DNA of 64,000 nt from Thuidium tamariscinum (lineage: Eukaryota; Streptophyta; Bryopsida; Hypnales; Thuidiaceae). The stretch spans positions 7,192,001 to 7,256,000 of the forward strand of contig OX344757.2 in NCBI GenBank assembly GCA_947034885.2, in the 5' to 3' direction. The notes beneath the pieces are model-generated. The model ran no database searches. It worked only from the letters and a program-made list of their open reading frames with translations, and was not told the DNA's origin. The position numbers and the translations under genes are program-made. Positions 5,513-36,706 of the stretch are shown here, piece by piece. Each line of letters starts with the position of its first letter. Position 1 is the first letter of the stretch.

Positions 5513-5852
5513 GCTGGAGACGAGGCCTGCCCAGTGATCTCAGAACTATTTTTGGAATTTAGTGCAATATGCTACCATTCAAGAGAAACAGGCATCAACT
5601 TTGGCTATCTTGAGAGTGAGTAGTAGCAGAATAAAATAGAAAAGAAAGGATTTTGCAAGTTGTGAAGGATTATTGGGAGTACTGCAAGACAAAAACTAAC
5701 TAAACACATGCTAATTCTATTATAGAAGAAGTTGTAAATTGACTATCAAATTTTATTGTTTGTTGTAATTTTGACTAAAATGGCTCCATTAAAGGCCCTT
5801 TTTTACAATGTAATAGTAGCGCAAGGATTTTTTTGGTAGAAACGAAGAACCT

Positions 5853-5904
5853 ATATTTAACTAATTATGGACAATTGCATGAATTATGGACAAATTCATA
5901 GTCC
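5853..5904 (+). repeat. Left terminal inverted repeat of the giant element, with internal duplication
   Basis: The motif AATTATGGACAA occurs twice (5863-5874 and 5882-5893) because a 19-bp stretch is duplicated relative to the right end. Outside the duplication it matches the reverse complement of 25651-25683 almost perfectly. Confidence 0.75.
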
Positions 5905-6695
5905 ATAGCCACCTAAGAATGTGGAAAAGACGCTTGAAATGATGGAAAAGTGTCGGCAACCCACCCACACCTTGTTGAGAATAAGCAGTTGCATAAGAAA
6001 GAAGAGGATTGTTGAATGTTGGACCGCTTTTAGTGGAGTATCAGAAGCGGTGCCTATAACCGTCCACCCATCCCGTGGCCAATGACATGTATAGGCTGGC
6101 AGCCGATAAGAGAGCAAAGTAAAGTGCGCAAGAAGAGTAGAACAGGACAACGAGCATGACAGGTAGAGAATTTCCTGCACCGTTTGTGCACTGAAGATGA
6201 AACAGTTGCAACATGGTCCCCATAGGAGATTCAGATAAATATGTGAAGAAAGTACATAAACTCGCAGCAAGTGAGAAATGCAAGGACCTAACAACCGAAG
6301 AGGACAAAGTATCGCCTACGAGAGTAACGTCCTCCGGCTAGCCCTGTCGGCAGCCACCTGACAAATACGGGAAATGTGACCTGCCTAGTCATAAGACTTA
6401 TAGTGCCATCCTATGAAATATAAAGGCCCACCGTAAAATAACATAAAGTCCCACCGAAGAAGATAAGAATGCACATCCTAAAATGAGTACAAATTGAGGA
6501 CATGCACGTAATCATCTTGAACTGAACATTCTGCTGACGAACCGCGCGATCGTGATGCGGCCAAGCCCGTGGTATCGGCTGGCAGTCGACACCTGCATGG
6601 AGAAGACAAATCCGTGTTGCAATGTGCTGGTGACAGAACTGGAGGCCCCGAATGCTGTATCGGCTGGCAGCCGATAGGTCCGAGTCGATGTATCC
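5905..6695. other. 3' flank of the DUF7869-like gene inside the giant element
   Basis: I see no coding exon here. It contains palindrome copies at 6090-6108, 6573-6591 and 6658-6676 and a degenerate one near 6340. It probably includes the 3' untranslated region of the minus-strand gene that ends at 6696. Confidence 0.5.
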
Positions 6696-7594
6696 TTACT
6701 CGTCTCCGGCATCGTCTGCATCTCTGTCGAGAGTTGCGCCCGCGGCCTCTAGATTCGCAATAGCAGCAGCAACGGATGCCTCCGGGATGACATGAGATGT
6801 GGGAGGTCCTTTCTTTGCATGCAAGGGCATTCTGTGCGAGTACAAGACAATGTTGACATGGACCATCTGCGGAAGACAAAGTTCCTTGTGCCATCTTCGA
6901 GTCCAGCACTCCCTCGCAATAAGCGCCTTAGACTCCCTTTTTGCTTTCATGGGAGTCCACCACTTGATTTTAAAGTTTCCATAGGTTGGCCCCGGAGTCA
7001 TGTCGACACATTCGAGTACCCGTCCCAGCCAGCCAGGCAGGTGGTTGTTGTGACATGGTCGACAGAGCACAAAGTCCCCGAGGAGAACATCCCTGAATGG
7101 ATTGAATCTCAATCTTGGCCTGTCCTTGGCAGGTCCGCAGTATGGAGTGGGGTCCCCTTCATCCTCCAGAGTGGTGTCCATTGAATAATTTTCGTGCGCC
7201 CCCTTATCTATCGATGTGGATGCGTGATCTCTTGTCCAGTCAGAGAGTGGCCATAATCCTTTTTGAAACAGTGCAGGAGTTTGTGGCAGCGGTGAATTGA
7301 TCTCTGCTTGAATTCTTTCCCAGTAAGCCACATAGCCTGTCATTTCCTGTGCGTATCGTCTGTCTCTGGCCATTCCTGATTTCCAGAATTCAATGAATTT
7401 AGCGATTCCGTTTTTGATGAACGTCTGTTTCTCATTGCACTTTGTGGCCCTCGCGACTTCCTTTTTTGCGTTTCTCTTTCTTGGATTAATGTCTACATTC
7501 CCCTAGAGTGCCTTGAAAGGCACAGGTCGAGGGTCCCCCAGAGGAATGTTGGGTTGACCATTTTCATCCGCTGTCCACATTTTGACGGGTGGTC

Positions 7595-7602
7595 CAAGAG
7601 GG
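7595..7602. repeat. Left target-site duplication of the nested hAT-like element
   Basis: CAAGAGGG borders the left end; the right-hand copy is TAGGAGGG at 14389-14396. Six of eight positions match and both differences are transitions. Removing one copy restores the reading frame of the interrupted gene. Confidence 0.75.
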
Positions 7603-7794
7603 CAGGGTTGTCATAACGGACGAGTCAGGATCACCGGACGGTCCGGACGTACCGGACGGCTCCATTTTTCAAAGTAGTGGGATTTTTTTGGGTTGACACG
7701 TCAGCTTAGAAAGCGAGATCCAGGGCGCGGACTTCACCGTAACATTGTCAAGGCGTGGACGCGTATAGGAAGGGCGTGGACTTCACCGTCAACT

Positions 7795-9350
7795 TCAGGG
7801 CGGGGACGTGAGACAGGGCGGGGACGTGAAAAATGACAAGGCGCGCACGTCAACTTCTTTCTTCTTTTGCAATTGGAGTTTTGAGAATTTGGAGGCATGC
7901 AATATACCATTGGAAAGGTATTCAAAATACCTTTCCAATGGTATATTACACGCCTCTAAATTCTCAAAACTCCAATTGCAAATTCGAAAACAAATCTACT
8001 ACTAAAATCCACTATGCACAGAGTCCATGAGCAGGCGCGGACGCAAGGCCGGGCAGGGACGTCAGGGCGGGGACGCAAAGACGGGCGGGGACGCAAAGAC
8101 GGGCGCGGACGTTGGGGCGTAGACGTCAACTTTCTTCTTCTTTCGCGATTGGAGTTTTGGGAATCTGGGGGCGTGTAATATACCATTGGAAAGATATTTT
8201 GAATACCTTTCCAATGGTATATTACACGCCCCCAGATTCTCAAAACTCCAATTGCAAATTGGAAAACAAATCTACTACTAAAATCCACTATGCACAGAGT
8301 CCATGAGCAGGCGCGGACGCAAGGCTGGGCGGGGACGTCAGGGCGCGGACTTCAAGGCGCGGACGCAAGGCAGGGCGGGACTACAAACTGCGTGGGTGTT
8401 TTCAAATGGCCTTGGCCTTGGGATTCCTCTTCTTCACTAAACCCGCCCCCCCAAAAGGCCACATTAATTACTGTCAACTCATTTGTGCACGGTTGACTAG
8501 ATCTCCAAGTACATGGAGGTCAAATGGACACATTAAGAACTCCACCTACCAACTACAACTTGCACAAGGGTGGAGGCCTTTGAGAGCTAAGTGCATTTCT
8601 CTCTCTTGTGGCCTAACTCCTCAAATCTTCTTTCTCACAAGACCTTGGATTCTTCATTCTTGAATTGAATCTTTGGGAACTTGGAGGATAAAATAGTTCT
8701 TTTGTTTGTATTTGTTTTCCTCAATTTGATTCTTGAAGGCTTTGGATGGGGTTATTAGAGGGTGATGTAGCCCTTGCTATTTATTTATACCAAAGCTTGG
8801 ATATGTAGGTTATTTTTTGACTTTCTCTTATAGTAGTTTTACTTAATTATTTATTGTGTAAATTCTAAAGAAGGGATTTAGTGAAGGGCGCGTCTTTTTC
8901 CATTGCTTTTTTAAGTAATTTGAATGAATGGTTTTTTTTCCCTTACCATTTCTTTATTTTACTTTAGAAAGTGTGAAGAATTAATTAATAATAGTGGAGG
9001 CCCTCGTTCTTCATTTATTTTAGGGCGGTGTACAATTGAGTTCCCCTAGGGATTGTTCATTTAGTTATTGAATGCATGAAGGAGGGATTTGGAAGAGAGG
9101 AGGAGGTGACTTTGTTGTATTTCTTAAAATCTTGAAGTAGAGTTTTTAGTTCTTGAGGAATTTTTTTTTTTTTGGATGAATGTCTTAAAAAATGATACAA
9201 TGGGGACCAAGGGCACTCTCTCCCCATTTTTCTTTCCATGTAGCATTTATATTGTTGAAGGGAATTTAGAATTTAATTTTTTAATGATTGAATGAAGGAT
9301 TAATCACACAATTTTATTATCTCAATCCTTGAAGGTCACAATGGATATTA
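7795..9350 (+). repeat. Left arm of the large inverted repeat in the hAT-like element
   Basis: This arm is nearly identical to the reverse complement of 12734-14205. It includes two hairpin units (about 7861-7985 and 8142-8270), GC-rich motif blocks, a repeated 85-codon frame (8406-8663, coding status doubtful) and an AT-rich tail. Very high arm identity suggests recent duplication or gene conversion. Confidence 0.85.
8142..8270. repeat. Perfect-hairpin unit (about 60-bp arms), one of five in the hAT-like element
   Basis: Arms read GATTGGAGTTTTGGGAATCT, then GTGTAATATACCATTGG, and mirror back through TTTGAATACC. Sister units lie near 7861-7985, 10815-10955, 13812-13945 and 14050-14140 (the last has lost its centre). 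Each could fold into a long hairpin RNA. Confidence 0.8.
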
Positions 9351-12300
9351 TTTTTTTTCCAAATTTTCAAAGGAAAGTCTTAGATACTCTAAACTTAAAT
9401 TCAATACTTCTTTTCTTTCTTTTCAATAAAATTCTATTGAAAGTTGAGTTTAGCTTGAATAAAAGACAACCTTTCTCACAATTGCAATAAGACAAAAATT
9501 AGGTAAAACTAATATTTTCAATTTATCCTATTGACACAATTAATTGTATAGTTATCTAGAATATGAAATAACATTGATTTCTATGATACAAATAAATAAA
9601 TTTAAATGATTAAAATGCCTCCACTTTAGTTCCATCCTTTTTATCTTCAGAATTAGATGTTGAATCAAACTTAGGCAACATATAATCTTTCTTTGCATTC
9701 AAAGAAAAATTTAAATGAATTCAATCCATTCAATAAAATAATTCAAGTGCCTCTCGTCTTGTTCCTTCTTTTTTATTCCAACAATAACTTGAATCAAGCA
9801 AAGCTAGGTATAAGCTTCAGCATTAATGGATAAAAGTATAGAAGAAACCTTTACAAGCCTTTTCAATGGACTTGGGGTAATGAGATTCTTCTTCTCCCTA
9901 AAATCAAGAAATTACTTTCATGTTGCGAGGTCATATTTGTACTAGAGACCAAATCTAGAAGTCCATGATGCTGAAATGGCCATATTAAATAATTCGCCTA
10001 CCTCAATCTTTAAAAGGATTGGAAAAGGCATGCATTCTTAATTTTGGGGCCTACCTTTCTATGTCTTGTTTCTATCCAAGCACCTTGCTACTTCAATTTT
10101 CAACTCAATACCAAAACTTTTAAAGGGACACTTTAAAAAAAACCATTCATTCAAATTACTTAAAAAAAGCAATGGAAAAAGACATGTCCTTTACTAAATC
10201 CCTTCTTTAGAATTTACACAATAAATAATTAAGTAAAACTACTATAAGAGAAAGTCAAAAAATAACCTACATATCCAAGCTTTGGTATAAATAAATAGCA
10301 AGGGCTACATCACCCGCTAATAACCCCATCCAAAGCCTTCAAGAATCAAATTGAGGAAAACAAATACAAACAAAAGAACTATTTTATCCTCCAAGTTCCC
10401 AAAGATTCAATTCAAGAATGAAGAATCCAAGGTCTTGTGAGAAAGAAGATTTGAGGAGTTAGGCCACAAGAGAGAGAAATGCACTTAGCTCTCAAAGGCC
10501 TCCACCCTTGTGCAAGTTGTAGTTGGTAGGTGGAGTTCTTAATGTGTCCATTTGACCTCCATGTACTTGGAGATCTAGTCAACCGTGCACAAATGAGTTG
10601 ACAGTAATTAATGTGGCCTTTTGGGGGGGCGGGTTTAGTGAAGAAGAGGAATCCCAAGGCCAAGGCCATTTGAAAACACCCACGCAGTTTGTAGTCTCGC
10701 CCTGCCTCACGTCCACGCCCTGACGTCCGTGCCCTGCCTCACGTCCGCGCCTTGACGTCCCCGCCCTGCCTCGCGTCCACGCCCTACCTCGGATTTACTG
10801 CGTTGTGGATGTTGGCAGCAGATTTGTTTTTCAATTTGCGATTGGAGTTTTGAGAATCTGGGGGCGTGTAATATACCATTGGAAAGGTATTCAAAATATC
10901 TTTCCAATGGTATATTACACGCCCCCAGATTCCCAAAACTCCAATCGCAAAAGCAGAAGAAAGTTGACGTCTGCGCCCCAACGTCCGCGACAGGGCGTGG
11001 ACGCTATGGTGTGGACATTACAGCTTGGACAAGAATGGAGAGGGAACCTTGGCGGGCCTTTCAAATGATCTTGGGGTCATAGGATTCTTCTTCTCCCTAA
11101 AATTGAGGGATCACTTGAATGTTGTCAACTTATTTTTGTACTATGAACCAAATCCACAAGTACATGATGGTCAAATGGCTACATTAAATACTTCACGTAC
11201 CCCAATTTGCAAAGGAGTTGAAGAAGGAATGCATTCTTATTTTTGGAGGCCTACCTTTCTATGTCTTGTTTCCTCTCAAGGCACCTTGCCACTTCAACCT
11301 TCAATGAAACACCAAAAATTTTAAAGAGACACTTTGAATAATAAAAAATTTTGTCCATTGGAGGTTGAGGTTATTTCTTGCTTAGTTTGGTTCAAGTTAT
11401 TGTTGGAATAGGAAAGAAGGAACAAACGGGGAGGCACTTGAATTATTTTATTTTATTTTCCTACAATAGAAATCAAGTTTTTTTTTGCCTAAGTTTGGTC
11501 TAACATTTAATTGTGGGAATTATAGAAAGAGGGAATTCCAAGAAAGCATTTGATTTATTGAATTTTTTCTTACAATATAAGTCAAGGTTATTTCTTGCCC
11601 AAACTTGGATCATTGAATTGTGGTAATGGAAAAGAACGGAGAACACTTGAATATTTTTTTTCTCTTTTAAAATACCAGTCAATGTTATGTTTTGTGTGAG
11701 GTTGATTCAACATTTTATTATAGGAATAGGAATGAAAGGGAACTCTTAAATCATTTTATTTTATTTTATTTAAAATAAGAGTCAATGTTGTTTCCTTACC
11801 CAAGTTTGGATCATTTAATTGTAAAAATGGAAAAAGAAGGGGGACACTTGAATCCTTTACACTTCTTTTCACCATAGGAGTAAAGGTTGGTTTTTGAATC
11901 TTGACTAAGCTAGGATTGTGGAATTGTAGAAATTGAAAAGAAGAAGAGGTACTTGAATCATTGAAAAAAATTCTCTAATAAAGAGAAAGATTATTTTTAG
12001 CCTAATATTGGTTTAATATTTGATTGTGAAAATAGCATAAATGGAATTAAAAAGGAGGGTTTTGATTTGTTAATATTTCTATTCGCCTAATAGATAGAAA
12101 GGCTATTTCTTTCCTAAGCTTGTTTTAACATTTAGTTGTTGCAATAGAAAAGAAAGGATTAAAAGGGAGGCACTTGAACCATTTAATTTTTTTTTATCTA
12201 TGATAGAAGCCAAGGATATTCCTTGCCTAAGTTTGGATCAACATTTAGTTGTACAAATACAAAAGCAACAAAGGTATTTGATTTATTATGATTTCTTTTT

Positions 12301-12733
12301 CCCAATAGAGACAAAGGTTATTTTTTGCCTAAGCAATTAAATGTAGGAATATTGAAAAAGAAAATAAATGAGTAATGTTCATATATAACTATATATGCAC
12401 TTCATTTTCATATTCTTTTGGACGAATCTAAAAAGGTTACGACTCCTCAATCATTTGTTCTATTAAATGTAGGCCCCCAAAAATAAGAATGCATTCATTC
12501 TTCAACTCTTTTGCAAATTGAGGTAGGTGAAGTAATTAATGTGACCATTTCACCATCATGAACTTGTAGATTTAGTTTGTAGTACAAAAATGGGTTGACA
12601 ACATTGAGGTAATCCCTCAATTTTAGAGAGAAGAATAATCATATGAACCCAAGTCCATTTGAAAGGCCTACCAAGGTTCCACTCCATTGTTGTTCTAGCC
12701 GTAAGGCCCCCGCCCTAGCATCCCTACCAATTA
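9351..12733. other. AT-rich centre of the hAT-like element with diverged repeats
   Basis: Apart from the copy at 10128-10790, this centre holds diverged direct repeats (about 9845-10100 versus 11045-11330) and an inverted relative (about 12470-12700) sharing CTACCTTTCTATGTCTTG or CAAATGG-like stretches. From about 11340 to 12370 there is a ladder of similar AT-rich units with GAAT...AAGAAAGG motifs. I see no coding region. Confidence 0.6.
10128..10790 (-). repeat. Third, internal inverted copy of the arm sequence
   Basis: In reverse orientation it repeats the stretch around 8290-8960 of the left arm, including the 85-codon frame (10412-10669). It then runs into another hairpin unit at about 10815-10955. 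Confidence 0.8.
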
Positions 12734-14205
12734 TATCCATTGTGATCTTCAAGGATTGAGATAATAAAATTGTGTGATTAATCCTTCATTCAATCATTAA
12801 AAAATTAAATTCTAAATTCCCTTCAACAATATAAATGCTACATGGAAAGAAAAATGGGGAGAGAGTGCCCTTGGTCCCCATTGTATCATTTTTTAAGACA
12901 TTCATCCAAAAAAAAAAAAATTCCTCAAGAACTAAAAACTCTACTTCAAGATTTTAAGAAATACAACAAAGTCACCTCCTCCTCTCTTCCAAATCCCTCC
13001 TTCATGCATTCAATAACTAAATGAACAATCCCTAGGGGAACTCAATTGTACACCGCCCTAAAATAAATGAAGAACGAGGGCCTCCACTATTATTAATTAA
13101 TTCTTCACACTTTCTAAAGTAAAATAAAGAAATGGTAAGGGAAAAAAAACCATTCATTCAAATTACTTAAAAAAGCAATGGAAAAAGACGCGCCCTTCAC
13201 TAAATCCCTTCTTTAGAATTTACACAATAAATAATTAAGTAAAACTACTATAAGAGAAAGTCAAAAAATAACCTACATATCCAAGCTTTGGTATAAATAA
13301 ATAGCAAGGGCTACATCACCCTCTAATAACCCCATCCAAAGCCTTCAAGAATCAAATTGAGGAAAACAAATACAAACAAAAGAACTATTTTATCCTCCAA
13401 GTTCCCAAAGATTCAATTCAAGAATGAAGAATCCAAGGTCTTGTGAGAAAGAAGATTTGAGGAGTTAGGCCACAAGAGAGAGAAATGCACTTAGCTCTCA
13501 AAGGCCTCCACCCTTGTGCAAGTTGTAGTTGGTAGGTGGAGTTCTTAATGTGTCCATTTGACCTCCATGTACTTGGAGATCTAGTCAACCGTGCACAAAT
13601 GAGTTGACAGTAATTAATGTGGCCTTTTGGGGGGGCGGGTTTAGTGAAGAAGAGGAATCCCAAGGCCAAGGCCATTTGAAAACACCCACGCAGTTTGTAG
13701 TCCCGCCCTGCCTTGCGTCCGCGCCTTGAAGTCCGCGCCCTGACGTCCCCGCCCAGCCTTGCGTCCGCGCCTGCTCATGGACTCTGTGCATAGTGGATTT
13801 TAGTAGTAGATTTGTTTTCCAATTTGCAATTGGAGTTTTGAGAATCTGGGGGCGTGTAATATACCATTGGAAAGGTATTCAAAATATCTTTCCAATGGTA
13901 TATTACACGCCCCCAGATTCCCAAAACTCCAATCGCAAAAGTAGAAGAAAGTTGACGTCTGCGCCCTAGCGTCCCCACCCAGCCTTGCGTCCGCGCCTGC
14001 TCATGGACTCTGTGCATAGTGGATTTTAGTAGTAGATTTGTTTTCGAATTTGCGATTGGAGTTTTGAGAATTTAGAGGCGTGTAATATACCATTGGAAAG
14101 GTATTGCATGCCTCCAAATTCTCAAAACTCCAATTGCAAAAGAAGAAAGAAGTTGACGTGCGCGCCCTGTCATTTCTCACGTCCCCGCCCTGTCTCACGT
14201 CCCCA
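12734..14205 (-). repeat. Right arm of the large inverted repeat in the hAT-like element
   Basis: Reverse complement of the left arm 7795-9350. It differs mainly by a deletion of the loop of one hairpin unit (about 14093-14110), where GAAAGGTATTGCATGCC replaces the longer palindrome centre. Confidence 0.85.
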
Positions 14206-17200
14206 CCTTGTTGAGTTGCGTCCGCGCCCGTGGTGTCTAGGTGGCATGAACTTAAATCCGCATGGATTTTTTATTACCTTTTAAAAAAGTCAACTATGTG
14301 TTGACCCTATCGGACGGGCGAGAGCTCTATCGGACGTCGCGGACGGACGGACGGGCGAACCGGACGTCCGCCTGGTATGACAACCCTGTAGGAGGGAGCC
14401 ATGAAGAATCCGTGGCCTTGACCTTGTACCTCATGACCGGCCATCCCCGATCGACCCCATCCTCTACGACATAGAACTTGAATAGGTGTTTATCTCCGAG
14501 CCCTATGATTTTGTTGACCCCATCATGATGGAATCCTCTGAAGTATGATTTGAAGTCCGCGACCTCTTGCACGAACTCCGGAATGAAGGCTACCGTTTTC
14601 TGTGAGTCCATGAACGCCTTCATGAGATCCGCCAGAACGTAAGTGTTCTTCCTTTTGATGAGTTTTGAGAGGTAACTGAAGTGCGCGTCAATGTCCTCGT
14701 GCGTATGTCTGACAATGAGGAATCCTACGGAAACTTCCTTGAATATGCGCCTGGCAGTGAGCAGTGAGCAGAAAGCCATGAGGAATCTATTCTTGTTGTC
14801 CTTCGCTGAATTGTCGAGTTGCAAGAAGAGTTTTTTGGGTAGTGGGACCTGAGGTCGCCCTGGTGTTGGTGCGTCTGTGACCTTGTCCGAGGACTGCGGG
14901 ATTGACGAGCTGCATCTGGATTTGCCATGCAGCAGAGCCTCGAAGAAGCTGTTCAGCGGTGGAGTGGAGAAGAGTATCTTTGACTCCCTTACAGGAGGTA
15001 GTTCTAGGGCCCTGAGTACCCTACAGATGGATGAAATAGTGAAATTTGAATCCCCCGGCCAGAGTGATGTTGAGTAATGCGCGTATGCACCATCTCCATG
15101 TCCATGAGTGAGCATTCCAGTACATGAGATTGGAATTTGTCCTAGTCCTGCGGTGGCCTTTGTGATGCGCTGCATCCTGGGAATGGCAGTCTTTGTGGTG
15201 TCCATTTTGTCATGAATAATGCAAAGGAACTCTGATGGATTCTGCACTGACTGCGCGGTCCATCCGTTGTATACATTTCTACAAGCGCGCTGGTAATTGA
15301 GATGTCTCTCTCTGTCGTCGACGAGTGCCTGCCACTCATCACAACCTCTGGGATACTTTGCAATGAACTCTACGAGGAAGTCACACTTTGTGCATTTTGA
15401 GAAATTGCTCCCTACTGCCTTGACCTCTACGTTTTTGAAATGAGCATTTCGAAGTCGGCTGATAGCAGACTGGGATACCGGTTGCATATTGCATATTCTA
15501 TTGACCTGAAGAACATGACTACATGGATGAGTATCCATGTAAGACGATAGAGTTGTATCGGTTGGCAGCCGATAGAACTGTGAATGCCGTCCTATAGAAA
15601 GGAAATATCTATGGCTTCTAGATTCTAAGTGTAGCCTTGATTGTATCGGTTGGCAGCCGACAGAGGGACATTATACTATAGACGAGGAGGCAGATGTTGG
15701 ACTTACATAATTGACTTGTTCGCGTATGTGATCCCAATTCATTGCAGAGGGTAGGACCTTGAGATTGTCGACGCGTTTATTCCCAACCATTCTGAACTCG
15801 TTTGGCATCTTGTCTACATTCTCGTTGATGATCGTTTTGAGTGTTGCTTGAGCTTGTATTGTTTGTGGCCGTGGGCGTCGAGCCCCCGCATTTCCATGCG
15901 ACCCGTTGACGGATCCTCCGGCGGCCGCAGCCTTGTAAACATGATAGGCCGACCTGGATCCCCCGTGAATGATGTACCATGCGTTCTCGCAAACGTCTCT
16001 ATTAGCAAGAGTGATGAATTTTTTTCCTGGGATAATCCCTGCATGAAGTTGACTCTGCACCGCATACGCTACCTCCTTCCTACTCTCGAATGTGCAAGCG
16101 AAGAACTTTCGTCGTATAGACCTGGTGTCCTCCCAGGGAAAGGTCTGGCAGCATCTGAGCTTACAGCACTTCTGTGAGCTGACCTTACGTACCTCCGCCT
16201 CCGAGGTCTTGATTTGCAGCCTGGACTGGCTCTCGAGATCCGTGGGAATGACCCTTATGCGCACAGAGCGATATGGATTCCTCGGTACCCCCTGCATTCC
16301 GTCATCGTCTGACTCCTTCAACAGAGCAGCTTGTGAGCAAAGCATGACAATTTCTGATAGTAGCCTTCCCCCCTCCAATCTTGTGTGTGTGAGCTTCCAG
16401 CGCATGGTTGTCATTTGCATTTCGTGACTGTCCGATACGAACATGACCCCAACATCCATATCGCCCAGGACGCCATCATCGCAAGCCTCATCTGGTAGGC
16501 AGACTTGGATCATGGCTCTTCCCAGTACCGAGAAGTCGTCATTGAGAAGTTGACAGTATTGATTTCTCCAGAGCGGTCTATCTGGGATTGGAAGTCCATC
16601 TTGCACTCCAACCGGATCGGCATTGTCACCCCTCTGAGTACCATCTCTAAATGCATCCGAATGATCCATGCTGTCAGCAACACTTGCGTCGGACGTGCTA
16701 GTGCCAGAGGTGCTGTAACCATGAACATTGCACTGGTCGTGTGCAGACCTGCGGCTGTCATCGTCTGAAGAATAGAGTCTATCATCTCGCTCGTCTTCGT
16801 CTGATGCAGTCGGAAGTACCCGCTGTGATCCCGGATCATCGAGTTCTACCTGCACATTGTTCGAACTTCCACCACTCTCACAGTTCCCATCGACCTGAGG
16901 CTGCATGAAATTGGTCGCAGGTGCTCCTGTCGGCTGGCAGCCGACAACGTTGGTCATTTGGACAGAGGTCTGGATTGGTCTGACCTTGTAACCACTCCAG
17001 AGTAGTTTGTATCCTACACAACGTTTGAGTGTGATGAAATCCGGAATCTCGCAATAGGCAGTGTGATTCTTGAAATCATCGACGACATGCAGGAGCTTCA
17101 CAACGAGGAAGAAGCTGTGTGGAATGCGGAAGCCTCCCTAGTACCCCTTCGGAGAGCACTCTACAATTGTCCCTACACTAGCATAGAACAGAGTGTCGCC

Positions 17201-17638
17201 TAGAGTCTGGAGAAGTGAGACATCCATATTGACAGTGAGTGACAGGAATTGTTGTATGGGTTTCTCATCAGTGAGCACTTGTATCGGCTGCCGGCCGACA
17301 GCAGCAGCAGAAGACCCTTCCGCCTCTGCCTGGGGATAAACGTTGCCTGCCTCCCACACGATTGACCTTTCCGGGCAATGTCTGAGGAAAACCATGTCTC
17401 CCTCCGGAAACGGAAGAGGCATATCGAGGTTGTTTGGAACATCTAGGACATGAACGCATACGAGGTATGGATCGCAGCTGACCACCCTTTCTACGACCGC
17501 CCTTCCAGCGTAGTATAATCCTTCCAGTGTGAGAGCCACAACAACTCCCTTCTGCAGTTTCAGTCTTCCTGACCCACCATTTCTTGTGAATGCCTCAATA
17601 GGACTGGCACCCGAGGTCCATTCATCAGAGCCACTCAT

Positions 17639-18715
17639 GATTCGAAATCGAGGTGAGAACCCAGAATGTGGGAATTTTTGCTTCCGTCAAACCCGTGATG
17701 ACCTTATCGGCTGGCAGCCGATACCACTGTCCGTACGGTCAAGCACAGGGGCAGGACCGTACAACTAGAACTCCGGGGATCATGTAAGAAGCTAGATTTT
17801 TCAATTCCTATGATCTACGCACTATCCACAGATGCTCGGACCAGGCTGAATCAAGAAATGGAAGCACAAACGCAACCAAATAGGAAATGAAGAACCACTG
17901 ACAGGCATCTAATTCTCGAAAATGCAATTGAAATCCTACTGCAATTCAAATTTGTCTCCCAGCAATTGAAATCCTACTGCATTTCCTACGTAAGCCTGAA
18001 CGCCAAATAACATCTGTCCCAGAGCGCTTCCTGAACCCGAGGACTACTGAATACCTAAGCTGTGCACTAGGTTGAGGTCTACTAAATTCCCTCTCTAACG
18101 TTGCATCCTTCCTAAATAACAAGCCACTGCAATTCCCTCAAGGTTCTTGGACGCTCTGAGTGTGTGTGTGGGGGAAATGAAAATGGAAAATGAAGTCCTC
18201 CAAGATCAGATCCTAGGTGAGCATGCTTGTGATTGAACTTGGCACCTGAAATTTGAATTTGAAAGAGGATGAAGTTGTGGTGATTGCAAGAGAGACAAGG
18301 CCGTGGATCAGGAGATCGTGGGTGGAAATGTACGCATCATCGCAATGAGTGTTCGTCACTTGCATGTACCTCGTTGGATGTGGAGTACACGGTAGCGGAT
18401 GGAAACCGGGCGATGGATGAAATCATAGGATGAACGGACTCGGTTTGTCATGATTGCGCCCCTCGACTGGCAGCCGAGGGTATACCCCCCAGGCCACTTT
18501 CATTTTCTCTCATTTGCCATTTGCGCTCCTGCTCTCCCTCTCCCTCTCTCGCTCTCTCTCTTGCCTTCCAGCTTGTAGCTGACACCCCGACGCAGAGCGG
18601 AGGAGCAGCCGATAGGTGTTTCTGGGCAGCCGACAAAGAAGGAGTGTGCGGCAGCCGTTTTCTTCAGCAGCCGACAAGTTTTTCTGAGCAGCCGACAAGA
18701 GTCAGTCCTTCGGCA
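17639..18715. promoter_or_regulatory. Divergent promoter and leader region of the giant element's two gene sets
   Basis: This 1.08-kb spacer separates the minus gene (start 17638) from the plus gene (start 18716). It carries whole palindromes at 17705-17723 and 18461-18479 and a cluster of half-sites just before the plus start. I could not pick a TATA box with confidence. Confidence 0.5.
18606..18697 (+). promoter_or_regulatory. Array of five CAGCCGAYA half-sites before the plus-strand start codon
   Basis: Half-palindromes occur at 18606, 18627, 18652 (CAGCCGTTT), 18668 and 18689, all in one orientation. Spacing is 16-25 bp. The last ends 18 bp before the ATG at 18716. They look like half-sites of the 19-bp palindrome and might bind the same factor. 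That function is inferred. Confidence 0.6.
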
Positions 18716-21700
18716 ATGGCATCCTCCGGTTTGGCGAATGACAAGTACTTTTCTATACCTGTATCGGCTGCCAGCCGATACATTATTATTTCTTGATTAT
18801 TTTCAGTACAGCCATTGAGAGTGTGAGGCACCTGTGGATTGCTGTATCGGCTGGCAGCTGACAGACATGGGAGCACTCAGGTAACTCCTGAGCTCATGTG
18901 ATGTCGGCTAGCAACCGATATAAATCTGGGACAGTAGTCATACGATGTTCTGTAAATGACTTCTGAAGGTAGGGTTTAGGGATTGTGGCTGTATCGGCTG
19001 GCAGCCGATACACTAGATGCACAAAGTGGGGTTACATAGTGACAACTTACTGAGAATTGCAATGTATTGTTTTGTAGGAAACCGACTTTCTTGGCCCGAA
19101 TTCTAGGTGAGCAAATCCCGAACTCTGGAATTTTGGGTGATGGGTTTCCACTACGAGCAACATGGCGAGGGATCGAGGCCATCCAGGAATGGGGTTTGTG
19201 CTGGAGGCAGGCACCCGACAAAAAAGTGGACATCACATGCTCCTTCAAGTTGAAGGGGAACATGACCCCTGGCAAGGGAAGTGTGTTGTCTGTCAGGGCT
19301 GTTGGCGAGTCCGTGCATGTAATGATATGCTTGATGCCATTGGCAAGCACGGACGAGGTCCACGACTATTTTGCAGTGGAGTTGCCGGTGAACAAGTGCA
19401 CGGAGGAGGTCTGTGGACAAAAGTCCATGTCCATGGGCATGACATTTTCCAACAACACACCATCGACTACAGAGGAGCTCATCCAGGGGTGGGAGTGCCT
19501 GAAGCAGGAGCACGATGAGCATAATGCGTTGGTCGCTCATGAGCTGGAGAAGGGGAAGAAGAAGGTACCCGTGGAGAGGAAGCTGGTGGCGGCGACAGTG
19601 GCTGAGGTCACTGAAGCCGATCTTGAGGAGCCAGCGTCCCCGACCAAACCAAAGCGGAGAGGAAAGGGCAAGGATGACCCAACGAAGCCGCTCAAGCTCA
19701 CACTGGACGAAGCACTCCGGCATGGAAATTACCTCACCACGAAGACCAAGGAGAACGAGGTGAATGCTATTTACCAGGCGCTGGAGACGGGCCTCCTGCA
19801 CTCGTTTTCATACAAGAAGCAGCGTCTTCCGGGGGTCACACTCGGACAAGCTCCACATTGCACCGGACGAGCTCAAGTACCGGAAGATTGCGAAGGACCG
19901 GCTTGGACAGGTAATTGGAAGATCACTTGCATCGTTCTTTAATCAAAGTCATTTGATTTCTTGTATCGGCTGGCAGCCGACATGTGTAACTAGTCATTAA
20001 TGATTGGGCCTTCTGTCATTTCAGGTGAAGACCATGTATAAGGGATATGGGTCCATCAGGAAGAAGCCGGAAATACATGGGGTTCCATTGAAGCGGGCTC
20101 CATTGCCCAAGGACAAAGGGTTGGACGTAGTGATGGACAAGTGTCCCGGGCAGGAGGAACTCACTGTTGTCAACGGCATCTCAATGCTGTGGTGGAAGGC
20201 GCCGAATGTCCACTGGTACATCATTGGAGGGCAACACACGGTGACGGCCTGCCGAGAACTAGCCGAGCAGTATCCCGACGGCTCTGAAGCCAAAACGGAC
20301 GTCCTTGAGTTCAAGGTGATTCCGGTGTTCAGCAGAGACCCGGACACACTCGTCAGAGTCTCCAATGCCCTCAATCTCAACATCGCGGAGAAGGTGGCGA
20401 AGGAAAACTTCAGATTCTGCGCAGAGATGGGAAGAGTGGCGTGGGTGAAGGCGGGATGCCCAGAGCCGCATCGTGGAGGAGGCAAGCCGACACCAGCATT
20501 CGAGGTAGTACCCACGCTTCCTTGCTTTGTATTTCTATTTGTTCCATACGTTATGTATTGGCGGCCAGCCGATACATGTGTGCTCTGTTCTAAGCATTGT
20601 AGTTGAACTCTCAGGCTGCGAAGCTGAAGGTGATGGCGCACTTCGTGGAGGAAAAGGTGTCCTCCAAGTTGCTACTCATCTTCATCAAAGAGAACACCTG
20701 GGTGCTGTGGACGGAGGTGTTCGATGCGTGGGAGAACGGCAAACTCATTGGCGATGATGGGACTGTGCCCAATCTCCTGGTCAACCGGAAGCCGCTCACG
20801 CACATCACCAAAACAGATCTGACGCCAACGCTGGGGCTTCATGATTCAGATCTGTGCGAGTTGGGGCGGGAGATTGTTGCCCTCCGCATTAGCATCAAAA
20901 ACATCGCCAAGGCGGAGTCCTCAGGGAAGATCACTCTCTTCGATTGGTGCAAGGACAAGAAGCTCGACCGGATCGTCATGAACGAGATCATGTGGACCAG
21001 AAAGAAGTACCCTCTTCTTTGCGAGGACGCAGGCTGGACCCCATATTCGGATGAGGATTGGAAGGAGCTGGCTGACAAGGAGGGGTACTCAGCGGCCGTA
21101 GTCCGGAATGTCTGGAAGGACATGATGAAGTTCACGAACGCAAGCAACTGGTTGAAGGGGCGAGTCAACCCCATGAATCCAACCACGGACAAGTCCACGG
21201 ATGGCAAGGCGCCGGGGGTCTTCTTCACGACTTTGGCAAGCTACGTCAAAGTCAACTTGCCTACCACGGTAGGCAAGTCAAGCGATCTACAATACGAATG
21301 CCATGTCGGGGAGAGTATTCCAGAGGTGGTGGCATTCATTCGTCAATCCAAAGGGACGATGGCGCTGGAACCCGAGGACAAGAAATTCCTCGTCCTTTTC
21401 GGGTATATAGATATGGGGGAACCTCTTGGGGTGACCAGGAATGACCTGCTCGACGTGTCGTTGGCAGCAGAAATTTCGGACGGGGCAGACAATGAAGATG
21501 GCGACCCTTACATCCCGTTGCCAATGCTCCTCATCGGGAACTCGCGGTTCCGGGATTCAGTCGCCTCGACAACGCACTCATCCTCGACCGACTGGTACTA
21601 CCATGTAGTGTACTACCAGCCATCTCCCCAGGGAGGCTTTCAGAAGGCCGAGATTGAGTCCAGGCCTCTGGTCACTCTCTCCTTGACCTTCCCGAAGCCC

Positions 21701-22847
21701 GAGGACAGGCTCAGTGTTTTCCCGGTATTCAAACGCTTTACTGGGATCAACAAGGCGCTGAACTTGTTTAATTTCGACGTCGAGGGGGAGGTCGACTGGA
21801 ATGGCGGGATGTGCGGGGTTGGCCATGGACTGCTCGAGAAACTCATGCTACCCACCCTCAAAGCCAAGGATGCCACCGTCATCAACATCTGGGGAGGCGG
21901 TAACATCACGGAGATCGCTTTGGTACGTTTTCTTATCCCATCCTCACACTTGCATTGTTCTCAGGAAGTCACTTTCTGTCGACTGGCAGCCGATACAATA
22001 GATGGTTGACTTGTATTCCATGGCTTTGCAGAGGAATGGACGGGCTGTCATGGAGTTCATTCGGGAGGAGGAGGGATTGGAGAAGGCGAAGGAACGTGTG
22101 AGGGGAATGAACCTCCTCTCCACGGATTCCCTGGGACCTACTCAGGTGACTCTGGCGATCACAGACCAGGAGGGGCAGACGACACCTGCGCAATCTCCTC
22201 GGCAATCGCTGCCGTTGTCTACCCTCGTTCTACCCCAGGCTCCGGGGGGTGCCGCTCAAACTCAGCGGACGCAGGGTCAGTCTTAGGAGCAACCACCACT
22301 TGTGACGGTTGTGACTGACTCAGACACAGAGAGCTCCCCGGAAGCAACACTCATTCGAAGGGGACGGCAACCACGTCCTTCGTCTCCGAGGCCCTCTCTT
22401 AATTTACCCCCGACTCAAGATCTCGACCGCCCCGTGCTGCTCCCACAGAGAAACTCCTCGCTCGCAATGGTCGTGGATCTGCGCGCTGAGCCACCGTCGG
22501 AGGAGATAAGCAGGCTCCCTCTGCCTCAAGTGGTCGTCGCGGCGATGGAGCCTCAGGTGGGAGTAACTGCACTTGGGCGACCGGCGACCATGGCCGACAT
22601 TTGTGTCGGCGGCCAGCCGACACCCATGGAGACTTCTCCGCCGGAACCAAGACGGGGAAGAAGCAAGGGGGCACCGCTGGAAAAGGAGTCGGAGTCGGCG
22701 GACTCGCGCCGCTCAACTCGGATCTTCTTCAAGCGGAAACGATCAAACGAGAAGGACGGTGGCGCGGCGGCGCGAACGCAGGACTTCCCGAATGAAGAGA
22801 TGTCTCCCGTCCGATCTCAAAAGAGGACTCAGACTGGAAGTTCGTAG
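18716..22847 (+). pseudogene. ParB-like domain plus degenerate DNA methyltransferase-like gene of the giant element
   Basis: Exons: 18716-18744, 19078-19910, 20025-20504, 20615-21922 and 22032-22847, all GT-AG and phase-compatible. Around codon 350, WYIIGGQHTVTACRELAEQ followed by DPDTLVRVSNALNLNIAEKV resembles the ParB/sulfiredoxin fold (the GGxH...A helix). Near codon 780, VVYYQPSP occupies the place of a DPPY motif. About 90 codons on, VINIWGGGNITEIALRNGR resembles the FxGxG motif of beta-class N4/N6 DNA methylases. ParB-methylase fusions are known from phages and bacteria. The catalytic DPPY is not conserved, so activity is doubtful. The tail (22302 on) is Ser/Arg/Pro-rich and includes a translated palindrome. 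Damage: one extra base in the G5 run at 19831-19835 and an in-frame TAG at 22284-22286. A methylase or ParB role is inference. Confidence 0.6.
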
Positions 22848-23110
22848 GCAGTAGACATGCTCCGCGATGTTTGTGGAGTATCATATATAGTTCGTTCATA
22901 AGTAGAACTGCCTGGCTTAGACTCGTACGTAGACATGTCAGTAGGAGCCGTTATTTGGACAGACCAGACTTGCTCTCGACTATGTCGGCTGCTAGCCGAT
23001 ACAGTGCTGAAATGTTTTGTCGGCTGCCAGCCGATATAGTGCACAAATGTTTTGTCATCTATCTAAGTTCATAGCATCTCATGTTCTATGTATTTTGTGT
23101 GGCAATGCAG
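22848..23110 (+). other. Probable intron or spacer between the methylase-like and FCP1-like coding blocks
   Basis: Two palindromes (22983-23001 and 23018-23036) lie here. A donor at 22840 (leaving one base) and the acceptor ending GCAG at 23110 (needing two bases) are phase-compatible, so both blocks could be one gene. A separate gene with an unseen first exon is equally possible. Confidence 0.4.
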
Positions 23111-23952
23111 ATGATGACTATCACAACTCTGACAATTCCTCCGACACCGTATCTGAAGCTGGGAATCAGAATGTCCAGACAGAGACAAAAGACAGACCAT
23201 GGACTCCCGATAGTGCTGGCTCTACTCAGGTAGCAACTCCGAAGTTGTTTCTTTTCCTTGAAGTTCAGGGAACTCTACTTTTCTATGAGCCACTCATTGT
23301 CAAAGGGAAGAGTATGACTCAGAGGTCGACAGTCAGAGACCGACCAGGTCTCCGGGAGTTCATTTTGTTCTGTAAGGGTCAAGACATTGTGATTGTCTAC
23401 TGGTCGATCTTACCCAAGAACACTCTCGAGCAGCGCCTTCATAACCTTAGATGGAAGGCGTCGGAGATCGGAGAGGATTACCTGGCCTTTGGACAGGAGT
23501 TCTGTGACGAGAGTACTTATCGAGACCCTCAGAGTGCATCGCGACCAATTTTTCTGAAGCGTCTCGCGAGAATTCTCGGAGCATCCTCCTTGTACGATAA
23601 TGGCGCCACGATCAACAACTCATTGATCGTGGACTCCGAGCCATATAGGAACGTCTTGAATCTGCCGTATAGTGCGATTCATCCGCCCCCCGTCACCATG
23701 TACTCGGAGAAATCACTCAAGGCAGGGAAACTGCCATTTCTCCAGGCGACCATGATCCCGTTCATTGAACGGCTCTTGTCTTCGGGACTCACGGTCCCAC
23801 AGTTCTGTGAGAGGAACTCGTCCACTGGGCTTGCACGATGTATGCCGGGAACCCCTATGCATAATCAGTACGTGAATGTGACACCGCAATATCAGAAGGG
23901 ATTCGAGGTGCCATATTCACAGGAGGAGCTAAAGGCCTTGGGAATTGCGTAG
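23111..23952 (+). CDS. FCP1/HAD-phosphatase-like protein, catalytic aspartates lost (copy 1)
   Basis: After an acidic, Ser-rich stretch (NSDNSSDTVSEAGNQ), the frame reads LFLFLEVQGTLLFYE, then RPGLREFILFC, VIVYWSILPK and NNSLIVDSEPYRN, and ends in GCG-TAG. The order matches FCP1/NIF-type HAD phosphatases: motif I, the RPG helix, the (V/I)W(S/T)S strand and a VIVDDSP-like motif IV. Motif I, normally DxDxT, is ExQGT, so the nucleophile Asp and the second Asp are absent. It is probably not an active phosphatase; a binding role is possible. The coding frame itself is intact. It lies downstream of the methylase-like gene on the same strand and may be its continuation by splicing. Family assignment is by eye. 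Confidence 0.6.
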
Positions 23953-24416
23953 CCCACGTGACCGGACGGAGGAGGCGTAGTGTATCGGCTGCCAGCCGAC
24001 ACACTCTTCTGTACATTGTACATATTCTCTGTAGATACAGCACGGATAGACTAAATCTTCTGTGGACATTAGTTTCTTCTGTATGGATTAAACATTTTTT
24101 TGTAATCAAGACATTATAATCACATTTTTTCTAAAGCGTGCACATGGCTCACTCTCAAAGCATTCCAATGTTTCCTTTGAGAGTTTCATCATTAGGTCTT
24201 GGACTTTGGAATCGACTGATTGCAATAATGTAGGGGCAGGCACTCACTCATCTCTACAGTCTATCTACCACATGTCTCTTTCTCCACAATTAATGCTTCC
24301 TGTTGTATTGGGTCAGGCAACAGTATCGGCTACCAGCCGATACCTATTGCATGCGCTTCTTTCATCGGATGCTTATGTTGTGGAATTATGTAACCACTAA
24401 CTTATCTTCTATTCAG
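23953..24416 (+). other. Spacer or intron between the two FCP1-like units
   Basis: It carries palindromes at 23983-24001 and 24324-24342. I see no obvious exon, though a short first exon of the next unit may hide here (open frame from ATG 24206). The acceptor is CTATTCAG ending at 24416. Confidence 0.4.
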
Positions 24417-25067
24417 GAGTCCAACGTTGGGCATACACAGTCCTTTAAGAAATATGTGGTTCTAGGAGTCACGGGACTACTTTGTTATCTCGACCCGAAT
24501 ATCAAGGTGGACAAGTCAGACCCACACAGAAACGTCATTAAAAAGCCAAGGCTACTTCCTATGTTCATGACATTGTTTCAAAAGTTTCACGTAGGAATTT
24601 GGTCAAGGTTGCCAATACTTCAGCTTAGGCCTTTGCTTGCGCACTTGCTTCCAAAACATATCAGAGACAACCTAGCATTCGTTTATGGCAGAGAGTACTG
24701 TGTAGATAGCCTCAAGTTCCCGTGGTGCTACAAAATGCTCTCAATACTCCATACTAAGAGACCATCCAGGATGACATGCTTCACGGACCAAGTGCTCATC
24801 ATCGATGTGTGCCCGCTTGCGCTGAGGAGGACGCCGGATACGGCGTGCTATATTCCGCTACCATTCAACGGAGATCTCAATTTCCCCAACACTAGTAGAG
24901 TTATTCCAAACATTTCAAATGATATTATTCCTTTCATTTATCCCATGCACCAATATCAGTCAGTCTCAGAATACATCAAAGGCGCACAGAGATTGGGACA
25001 ATTGCACTATGAGGTGGCACAATCAATCAAGTATGGCAAGCCGAATTGGCAGGGGATATTCTGGTGA
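24417..25067 (+). CDS. FCP1/HAD-phosphatase-like protein, catalytic aspartates lost (copy 2, 5' end unseen)
   Basis: This 216-codon exon begins after an acceptor at 24416 and runs to TGA. It reads YVVLGVTGLLCYLD (motif I region with both Asp missing), RLLPMFMTLFQKFHVGIWSR (the FCP1 helix and WS strand), YGREYCVD and VLIIDVCPLALRRT, then a ProPheAsnGly-type tail. The block order is the same as in 23111-23952 but the sequences are strongly diverged, so it is a tandem paralogue. It has no recognisable start codon of its own; the ATG at 24303 lies within the palindrome-bearing presumed intron. Inactive as a phosphatase if the reading is right. A second exon or partial-gene reading cannot be excluded. 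Confidence 0.55.
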   Translation, partial: ESNVGHTQSFKKYVVLGVTGLLCYLDPNIKVDKSDPHRNVIKKPRLLPMFMTLFQKFHVGIWSRLPILQLRPLLAHLLPKHIRDNLAFVYGREYCVDSLKFPWCYKMLSILHTKRPSRMTCFTDQVLIIDVCPLALRRTPDTACYIPLPFNGDLNFPNTSRVIPNISNDIIPFIYPMHQYQSVSEYIKGAQRLGQLHYEVAQSIKYGKPNWQGIFW

Positions 25068-25650
25068 TTCACCCTACATCGTGTCAGTCGCCAGCCGATA
25101 CAACGTCACTGGAATCGGGGAGGCTGCAAGACCTTCATGTCTCGTACACTTTTTCAGAAATAGGAACAACTGATTTCAGAGCCAGTCCTATCGAGTCCAT
25201 TGCCTCTTCACTGGAAGACCTGCTCTCTGGAGTTTTCGGAGGGGGATATCGGCTGCCTGCTGATACTCCGGATTTTATTACTTGGATCGGATGGACTAGG
25301 GTTTAGGGTTTAAGGTCGACAATTTGTCGCGCTTCATCTTACAGATGAATGCTGTAGCCACTTGTCACTTGATGCACTTAGGACACTTTCATAGGTCTAG
25401 GTGCTCTAGTGTATGATGTTAGGAATCGGCTGCCAGTATCAGGCGCCAGCCGATACGGGCTCACAAATTAGGACACAACAGACGTGTTTATTTAACAAAA
25501 AAATTTCATAAACTATTACCTCTGAACTCTTTTATGGGCCAGGTGTTTTGATACTTTGGTTTCTTTAGTGGTTGTAGCCATTTTGGTTCATTGCTTGTGG
25601 CACACAAAACTATGCATTCGACTATATCAGCTGACGGCCGATTTATTTCT
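25068..25650. other. Right subterminal region of the giant element
   Basis: No coding exon is recognised. It contains palindromes at 25082, 25247, 25438 and 25625 and a telomere-like GGGTTTAGGGTTTAAGG stretch at about 25301. Confidence 0.5.
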
Positions 25651-25683
25651 GGACTATGGATTTGTCCATAATTAGTTAAATAT
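25651..25683 (-). repeat. Right terminal inverted repeat of the giant element
   Basis: GGACTATGGATTTGTCC followed by ATAATTAGTTAAATAT is the reverse complement of the left end apart from the left end's 19-bp duplication and one mismatch. A palindrome copy (25625-25643) lies directly inside it. Confidence 0.75.
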
Positions 25684-26879
25684 TAGTTGAAGCAAAATTT
25701 AGTCAGTTTTGAGAACATTGACCCCTACTGCATAATTGCACATGCCCCTAACCAATGATCTCAAAACAAGTTAACAAGTTAAGGGTTTTTTAGCCAAGTG
25801 TTCATTTTTGGAAGATTTGTTTGGAATTTACACTAAGGGCATGGAAAAATTAAGTAGAAACCAAACAAAGTTTAGCCAATTCTAGAATTACTGCCCCTAA
25901 TCAAAAAAATTCATGTTGTGTTGAAATGTAAAATTCATTTTCAAGTTTTTTAGAGTTGGAATTGCCTTTTGTTGAGTTCCATATGATGATGCTTTGTTTT
26001 CTATGTGAGTAGGGAGAAACTATATTTTAGGAGTGACTTTGTTTTAATGTCAAACTAAAAGCAAGCCAAAAGTTCAAGTCTATTTTTATAAGTAGTTTTC
26101 TAAAAATTTCCCCCCTACTTTCATGAGCCTCTACAACAATTTTAATTTGTTGCCCCAAAATTCTAATTCTCCATTTGCAAAGTGCAATTGTTGTAGGATT
26201 TCAAAAAAATTTGGACTTTTGTACAAGGCTTGGCCAATTTGAGGTGCATATAAATTTGCCAAAGCTACATCCAATCCAATCTAATGGTATAATCCATAAT
26301 GGCACATATTCCAAATTAACAGTTGTACCCAATTTAATCTAATAACTTTCTCTATAAAAGTGTGTTAAGATTCCATGCTTTAGATATTGATTAAACTAAT
26401 TTCCATCTAAAAGTTGTTGTAGGAGATTGCCCTAAGTAATACCAGATCTCTTCTAATGATATACTATTGAATGATGCTTTCTATAAGTTTACATCTAACC
26501 TATTCTACTAGAACACTTTCAATTGTAGTTGCACATCCTTTTAAACTTACATCTGACCCACTCTCATAGTACACTCTATATTTGCACATTCTTCTAATTT
26601 TCATTCAACCAACTTTAATAAGACTCTCTATAAAAATTTATACTAAATATCCATTCTTTTTTACTTCAATTTTTTAAATTAAAAAAAACATAATAAACGA
26701 TCAATAGCAAGATAACATTCAATCATATAGACATGACTTTAGAATGAAAAATCTATAAATCTCATTTGCAAATTTACACCACATCATTTGTATAGATTAC
26801 ATTTTATAATATCTCTTTAATAAATATTCAAATCAAGTTTATTGAAAAGAAATTGTTAACCCATGAAGGTTCAAATACA
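25684..26879. other. AT-rich intergenic DNA, nothing recognised
   Basis: I see no gene, RNA gene or repeat structure that I can define here. It directly flanks the giant element and has no palindrome copies. Confidence 0.5.

Positions 26880-31916: not shown

Positions 31917-36706
<4,790 letters not shown>

Follow-up and report, generated by a model that had tools for sequence, protein, structure and literature searches.

Three families of DUF7869-carrying elements in the genome of the moss Thuidium tamariscinum carry different palindromes, TATCGGCTGSCAGCCGATA in family A, ATCSGGAGATCTCCSGAT in family B and TATCTTCGASTCGAAGATA in family C, a finding that goes beyond the first-pass annotation of the window (the whole 64,000-nucleotide stretch analysed here). 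The interval singled out by that annotation is one copy of family A that was recently mobile, and the unit has moved. We consider it rather likely that these are large terminal inverted repeat (TIR) transposons of an unclassified superfamily, which encode a coevolving address system based on DNA binding, like TNPA of CACTA or VANC of VANDAL elements, and the differing palindromes point to each family reading a DNA address tag of its own.

Ends, copies and mobility

Comparison of copies places the element at 5848–25688. The inverted ends first described at 5853–5904 and 25651–25683 are real, and their boundaries shift 6 bp outward. The 21 terminal bases at 5854–5874 and 25662–25682 are identical in inverted orientation, the left TIR being AACCTATATTTAACTAATTATGGACAA (5848–5874, plus strand), and a second, inner block of 23 bp at 5883–5905 (plus strand) agrees with 25650–25672 at 22 of 23 bases. 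The right TIR and its inner block together occupy 25650–25688 on the minus strand, and an extra 19-bp repeat is present at the left end. Flank comparison of copies identifies a target-site duplication, GAAG, at 5844–5847 and 25689–25692; family A ends are AACCTATATT/AACTAATATT (AACC...), with a 4-bp duplication. A palindrome-free nested insertion with ends CAGGGTTGTCAT... and a duplication of ~7–8 bp lies at ~7603–14389, where it splits the DUF7869 gene; by inspection it appears hAT-like.

A genome search with the ends returned 48 right and 42 left matches, giving 39 paired elements, 24 of which are 13.0–13.9 kb long, which bears out the proposal of a single mobile unit of ~13 kb. The target duplication is 4 bp and agrees in 24 of the 29 paired elements read at both flanks. 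Uninterrupted paralogous target sites were found for four insertions, that of the window's element among them; the TA duplication of the first-pass annotation is wrong. These sites come from junction-spanning flank matches of five insertion–target pairs; matches at C3:29071020 (loci L023 and L006), C1:23429221 (L015) and C3:44925187 (L016) were discounted as self-matches, as inverted repeats or because they barely crossed the junction, and the five pairs leave out C4:15437837, C9:1968238 and the weaker matches of C1:24205884. With matching ends, a constant duplication, dispersed copies and empty target paralogs, the element classes as a cut-and-paste TIR DNA transposon. Very young copies exist in family C, in which ten listed DUF7869 copies (the query included) are 99–100% identical to the query over ~400 aa. 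A search of viral contigs for homologs gave two pattern matches, neither of which was confirmed.

Several known superfamilies were considered as a home for these elements. Tc1/mariner elements are recognized by a TA duplication, in place of which we find 4 bp. CACTA/EnSpm elements have CACTA termini, a 2–3 bp duplication and a tnp2-type transposase, and the ends and duplication length seen here differ from these, with no tnp2-type match in Pfam. VANDALs are Mutator-type elements, and Mutator has a 9-bp duplication and a MULE transposase; the duplication here is again 4 bp, and a MULE match is absent from the Pfam search. Zisupton is likewise set apart by its duplication, given as 8 bp in the excerpts of PMC12730594.

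Private palindromes in three families

The family A palindrome is 19 bp long. At up to five mismatches to TATCGGCTGSCAGCCGATA there are 26 sites in the window, all 26 of them inside the element, as the first-pass annotation had it, and none in the nested insert; at six mismatches, 27 of 29 sites are inside. They are located in left subterminal DNA at 6090, 6345, 6573 and 6658 (6090–6676); at 15556, 15644, 16928, 17282, 17705 and 18461 (15556–18479); in introns at 18762, 18845, 18902, 18992, 19964, 20556 and 21977 and in a reading frame at 22604 (18762–22622); and in leaders and right subterminal DNA at 22983, 23018, 23983, 24324, 25082, 25247, 25437 and 25625 (22983–25643). Five GT–AG introns, positioned from sequence and not from RNA, substantiate the divergent multi-exon genes previously reported inside the element, and they hold nine of the sites (4, 1, 1 and 1 in the plus-strand gene, 2 in the minus-strand gene). 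Three sites lie within reading frames (16928, 17282 and 22604), so introns are not their sole home, and the other 14 are in leaders, subterminal or unplaced DNA.

The outer bases of the palindromes are TATC...GATA (ATC...GAT with variable end bases in family B) and the centre is private to each family. Exact copies in the 363-Mb genome number 130 for A, 216 for B and 179 for C, and reversed controls give 0, 0 and 0. Searching the genome with the family A 19-mer, as had been proposed, ties the palindromes to elements: 46 of the first 50 sites listed (130 in total) are inside paired elements, which make up 0.23% of the genome, and the other four are near unpaired ends, 0.8–13.4 kb away. For family B, 49 of the 50 listed sites (216 in total) are at most 15 kb from a B DUF7869 gene or its partner gene and one is isolated.

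A private palindrome was sought in family C after those of A and B had been seen, and was found in the 1.2 kb upstream of one C gene; none is present in 3 kb of C coding frame. Among the 50 listed C sites (179 in total), 33 have a listed C DUF7869 gene no more than 15 kb away and 17 do not; 11 of these 17 are within ~9 kb of a weak match to the partner gene, as judged by hand, and six are unexplained. No palindrome is seen in 400 bp upstream of a fourth DUF7869 group (40–42% identity), and private palindromes are therefore perhaps not common to all groups. Placement is mostly noncoding, in introns in A and B and in upstream DNA in C, and family A sites are also found in subterminal regions and, in a few cases, in reading frames. 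A family-private motif repeated in the noncoding DNA of an element is what is seen in VANC- and TNPA-like systems.

The DUF7869 gene and its divergent partner

The DUF7869 gene is on the minus strand and comprises a C-terminal part truncated by the nested insert (6696–7602), a domain exon with motifs HDKMD, LQLDN and HTHEDID (14390–15505), a 201-bp GT–AG intron containing palindromes 15556 and 15644 (15506–15706), and an N-terminal exon with a putative start codon (15707–17638). In the window copy the N-terminal exon has an in-frame stop near 17138; the region is one continuous frame in family C, and the 737-aa DUF7869 frame is unbroken in several further copies. The match to Pfam PF25273 (DUF7869) is firm (E 5.8e-40, 137 bits vs a cut-off of 26), and one family B and one family C member also match. 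HDKMD and HTHEDID are identical in all nine aligned rows and LQLDN in eight (LQLDY in the other), and pN/pS of the domain is 0.22 among seven copies. The DUF7869 half of the earlier "DUF7869-like candidate transposase" is thus secure, and we infer the transposase half, in which the invariant acidic motifs would form a DDE-type RNase H site. Pfam gives no function for PF25273, and no paper in the literature collection searched mentions DUF7869. An AlphaFold model from the nine rows was unusable (mean pLDDT 39.3, pTM 0.27), and at the sequence level the PDB yielded nothing beyond chance matches for the DUF7869, partner and FCP1-like proteins.

The partner gene, P, is on the plus strand (18716–22286) with exons at 18716–18744, 19078–19910, 20025–20504 (containing GGQHT), 20615–21922 and 22032–22286 or beyond, and all four of its introns contain palindromes. 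Upstream of it are four solo half-sites, CAGCCGAYA, at 18606, 18627, 18668 and 18689 (18606–18697, plus strand), spaced by 21, 41 and 21 bp. P is divergent to DUF7869 in family A, in family B and, by weak matches, in family C. Fifteen loci match P at 22–27% identity, of which ten have a listed B DUF7869 gene no more than 32 kb away, divergent in every case and at 11.6–16 kb in seven; one of the remainder is 121 kb from a listed B DUF7869 gene and four have none. The GGQHT exon has 40 weak matches, a count that omits C11:3886790 and C5:5010977 (same E range), taken to be fragments of decayed family A relatives; for 11, a listed C DUF7869 gene is no more than 20 kb away, always divergent and at 10–15 kb, where ~0.5 would be expected genome-wide, or 1.7 once the crowding of contig C11 is taken into account. 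Between A and B, identity of P is ~24%, compared with ~60% for DUF7869 (over a matched part that excludes most of the N-terminal region), as expected of a fast-evolving specificity factor.

The first-pass annotation had described P as "ParB plus methylase". By eye, GGQHT resembles a ParB motif and INIWGGGNITEIAL...GRAVMEF the end of a beta-class methylase, and the apparent catalytic motifs are degenerate; P has no match in Pfam and chance-level matches only in PHROG and NCBIfam, so the description is a tentative one. The FCP1-like proteins fare similarly, the first candidate gene (23111–23952, plus strand) having no Pfam match and the second (24417–25067, plus strand) matching NIF at E 0.0045, with 17.1 bits against a cut-off of 21.8. 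Scans of the window for RNA families and tRNA found nothing.

Reading the palindromes, and comparison with known systems

An element-encoded protein, most likely P, would bind the palindromes as a dimer that recognizes the family-specific centre. Binding along the whole element may mark self DNA, and the bound protein could keep element promoters out of silencing, help to join the ends, or both, much as TNPA does for En/Spm or VANC for VANDAL elements; introns would provide places for sites without harm to reading frames. A/T positions of the palindromes are less variable than flanks (4/191 vs 109/1350, p 0.0016) and C/G positions are more variable (102/322 vs 285/1186, p 0.006), the latter excess probably reflecting methylation decay.

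The sites had been called hairpins, and palindromes acting in RNA, as intron or leader hairpins controlling splicing, export or stability of transcripts, would account for at least one site in all five placed introns. The central base in one family A copy also fits transcription orientation, with 11G/4C in the left half and 2G/8C in the right (p 0.015, two sites with A set aside). We nonetheless find this improbable and prefer DNA binding, given the solo half-sites upstream of P, the subterminal sites, and arms in which 2 of 243 position pairs have two different complementary pairs, although little covariation is expected among young copies. It is also doubtful, if somewhat less so, that the binder is the DUF7869 N-terminal region, with the palindromes serving as extra transposase sites and P having another role. 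DUF7869 is the sole gene with a firm family match and both subterminal regions contain palindromes, but sites extend all along the element and are not limited to its ends, and A and B proteins keep ~60% identity despite differing palindromes, although most of the N-terminal region is unmatched.

That the palindromes are a small repeat without function, whether a miniature internal element or an introner, multiplied passively in each family seems to us very unlikely. Tandem copies at multiples of 48 bp in one B element speak for it; against it, outer bases and length are similar around three different centres, A/T positions vary less, 27 columns of the alignment retain the site in 12 or more of the 14 copies, and the listed exact A and B sites are almost confined to elements. 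We give equally little credence to the idea that P, equipped with a ParB-like module, is active as a DNA methyltransferase and modifies the palindrome to mark self DNA. The by-eye likenesses of GGQHT and INIWGGGNITEIAL...GRAVMEF speak for it, and against it stand the apparently degenerate catalytic motifs and want of a convincing library match.

Returning to element-encoded binding by P, a broader proposal is that DUF7869 is the hallmark of a so far undescribed superfamily of giant DNA transposons in eukaryotes, each family having its own address, TATC–private centre–GATA, which recurs in promoters, at the ends and in introns and which a coevolving partner protein reads. Introns would carry the address, and new centres would arise as lineages split, isolating families from each other and from host silencing. 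This we hold tentatively, at a little under even chances. DUF7869, a domain of unknown function, gains a concrete, testable role, and the address-site model suggests why short introns persist in element genes. With the same site design and three centres in three families, specificity switching can be studied as a natural series.

To our knowledge, only a few plant transposons are known to encode proteins that read private DNA motifs. The fungal TET/JBP transposons (Kyakuja, Zisupton and Plavaka among them), as presented in excerpts of PMC12730594, are alike in carrying an additional gene that is believed to act against silencing; Zisupton and Plavaka have 8-bp and 2–3 bp duplications compared with 4 bp here, and those excerpts do not mention private palindromes. 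VANDAL elements and VANC, from the sections of PMC5735166 and PMC10398659 consulted, share family-private noncoding motifs, including in introns, tandem arrays, and coevolution with an element protein. They differ in that the VANC21 motif has nine bases, whereas here the palindromes are longer, with similar outer bases, and accompany a DUF7869 gene, and anti-silencing would be a putative role. CACTA/EnSpm elements with TNPA/TNP1 (soybean Tgmt*, sections of PMC2613891) are likewise large plant transposons. Their second protein diverges fast and is considered to bind repeated motifs specific to the family, some of which can form palindromes; the Tgmt* target duplication is ATA. CACTA motifs are at the ends and the transposase is another one, whereas the elements described here have AACC... 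ends, a 4-bp duplication and sites spread through introns.

Ends, copies and mobility of the element

The element (window 5848–25688) has ends whose terminal 21 bases are identical, followed by an inner 23 bp block matching at 22 positions. The window occupies G000:C9:7192001-7256000 in a source genome of 363 Mb and 19 contigs, which we searched with both ends; the right-end 32-mer has 48 matches at up to three mismatches, 29 of them exact, and the left-end 41-mer has 42, while the reversed control of each gave none. When left and right ends in the same orientation and no more than 80 kb apart were paired, 39 elements were obtained from the 48 right ends. Of these, 24 measure 13.0–13.9 kb and the remainder are longer, as expected from nested insertions, and the longest pairings (51–66 kb) may be erroneous. 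In 29 elements read at both flanks, the element extends 6 bp beyond the 21-base match at either end, so that it begins AACCTA and finishes TTAGTT, and an identical 4 bp duplication flanks 24 of these. Comparison of the joined flanks of the 29 insertions identified, for four of them, paralogs running uninterrupted through the target site at 75–84% identity; the target paralog of the window insertion (in L024) matches over 231 bp at 80%, with 24 query bases past the junction. The ends, palindromes and genes described in the first-pass annotation are present, and the dispersed paired copies of about 13 kb, the 4 bp duplications and the target-site paralogs together prove the mobility it proposed, but at a 4 bp target site rather than the TA it had assumed.

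Fourteen full-length copies share 93–99% mutual identity, and each of these and the window copy has 25–27 palindromes. Among copies of this family (family A), C>T and G>A changes dominate, together accounting for 1816 of the 3201 minority states, and the most variable sites are CHG and CG. The pattern resembles that of decaying methylated DNA of plant type, which would account for frequent TAG stops.

Palindromes and genes of family A

A scan of the window at up to five mismatches found 26 palindrome sites, all 26 within the element and none in its nested insert, so the proposed restriction to this interval holds. We compared perfect palindromes (arms of at least 7; one site countable at several loop sizes) with Markov-shuffled sequence, and observed 16 against 2.4 expected in 14301–25689 and 3 against 1.0 in 5848–7789. 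For the nested insert the figures are 5 against 4.4, and for the DNA left of the element 5 against 3.4. Enrichment extends to the AT-rich DNA on the right (59 against 19.2). Palindromicity in general is therefore little proof, and the distinctive feature is the common sequence of the sites. They occupy both subterminal regions, every placed intron, leaders and three reading-frame positions, with half-sites upstream of the partner gene P spaced by 21, 41 and 21 bp; their C/G positions are more variable than the flanks.

The minus-strand gene carries DUF7869 and has an intron at 15506–15706, read from the sequence. It is interrupted in the window copy by the nested insert (about 7603–14389), whereas other copies have an uninterrupted 737-aa frame. 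Among seven uninterrupted copies pN/pS is 0.22 in the DUF7869 domain and 0.34 in the remaining C-terminal part. It is better conserved than any other gene of the unit and its acid motifs are invariant, which makes its product the putative transposase. The nested insertion (7603–14389) has CAGGGTTGTCAT ends, a duplication of about 7–8 bp and long internal inverted repeats with 1269 bp arms that are 99% complementary, and looks like a non-autonomous hAT element.

P, called ParB in the first-pass annotation, is divergent on the plus strand, and four GT-AG introns were read from its sequence (18745–19077, 19911–20024, 20505–20614 and 21923–22031). Of two more genes annotated as FCP1-like, the candidate at 24417–25067 has a NIF match below the cut-off, and that at 23111–23952 has none. 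The former has 68 matches, ranging from family A copies to decayed relatives at 35–57%. Elsewhere in the window, at 34089–34670, is a serine carboxypeptidase exon (PF00450, E 2.9e-19) of an ordinary host-type gene. Together with the methylation-like decay, this exon suggests that the host is a plant and perhaps a moss.

Two related families

Searching with the DUF7869 protein gave at least 98 matches (95 of 734 candidates scored), those listed comprising family A (86–100%), a few decayed relatives (68–79%), a second family, B (57–61%), and further groups at 39–43%. Besides family A and decayed relatives, the P main exon matched 15 loci, at 22–27% identity. For ten of the 15 a B DUF7869 gene is listed no more than 32 kb away, at 11.6–16 kb in seven cases, and each of the ten pairs has the divergent arrangement seen in A; for one other locus the distance is 121 kb, and the remaining four lack a listed B DUF7869 nearby. 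In 6.2 kb of one B element a palindrome different from that of A occupies two intron positions that also carry palindromes in A. The genome has 216 exact sites of this B pattern; of the 50 listed (first in contig order), 49 have a B DUF7869 or partner gene no more than 15 kb away. One element has a tandem array of B palindromes at multiples of 48 bp (G000:C3:47193248-47193697).

A third palindrome was sought in the 43% DUF7869 group, family C. None is present in 3 kb of coding frame, but in the 1.2 kb read first on the upstream side TATCTTCGASTCGAAGATA occurs six times, in this form or closely similar ones; it has 179 exact genome sites (control, 0). The C protein has at least 105 matches (104 of 725 candidates scored), and those listed include ten at 99–100% identity, counting the query. 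Of the 50 C palindromes listed (first in contig order), 33 have a listed C DUF7869 no more than 15 kb away. A search with the GGQHT exon of P recovered B at 34–37% together with 40 weaker matches. Eleven of the 40 are divergent from a listed C DUF7869 at a distance of 10–15 kb; five others are near C palindromes. Individually the 11 are weak (E 0.0097–0.19), and the evidence for P in C is their position: chance predicts about 0.5 across the genome, or 1.7 once the crowding of C genes on contig C11 is taken into account. Element ends of B and C were not found.

C11 (17.5 Mb, about 5% of the genome) holds 45 of the 105 listed C DUF7869 matches and is perhaps a repeat-rich or sex chromosome. Two C elements at G000:C2:19299453-19345554 are mirror images in orientation and, nearly, in the positions of their palindromes; their DUF7869 genes match the query equally well. 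The C DUF7869 of L071 (G000:C11:2214301-2217300) is one frame of more than 850 aa, uninterrupted where A and B carry a palindrome-bearing intron. No palindrome is present in L073 (G000:C11:14234061-14234460), the 400 bp upstream of a 40–42% DUF7869 gene, where there is an intron-like end.

Proposed function and known systems

The three families have three palindromes in a similar layout, with common outer bases (TATC...GATA for families A and C, ATC...GAT for family B) around a centre private to each, as expected if related dimeric proteins hold the spacing and change the central contacts. P diverges faster than DUF7869; it probably binds the palindromes and would protect or regulate the element.

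Judged by titles and abstract openings, with Repbase and subscription journals outside the scope, we found no account of such an element in the literature, and no mention of DUF7869 in the literature searched. VANC motifs are described as lying in noncoding regions, in VANC and VANB introns and in tandem repeats (PMC5735166). As dispersed, family-private sites, the palindromes resemble both these motifs and, in CACTA elements, the subterminal motifs of TNPA (PMC2613891).
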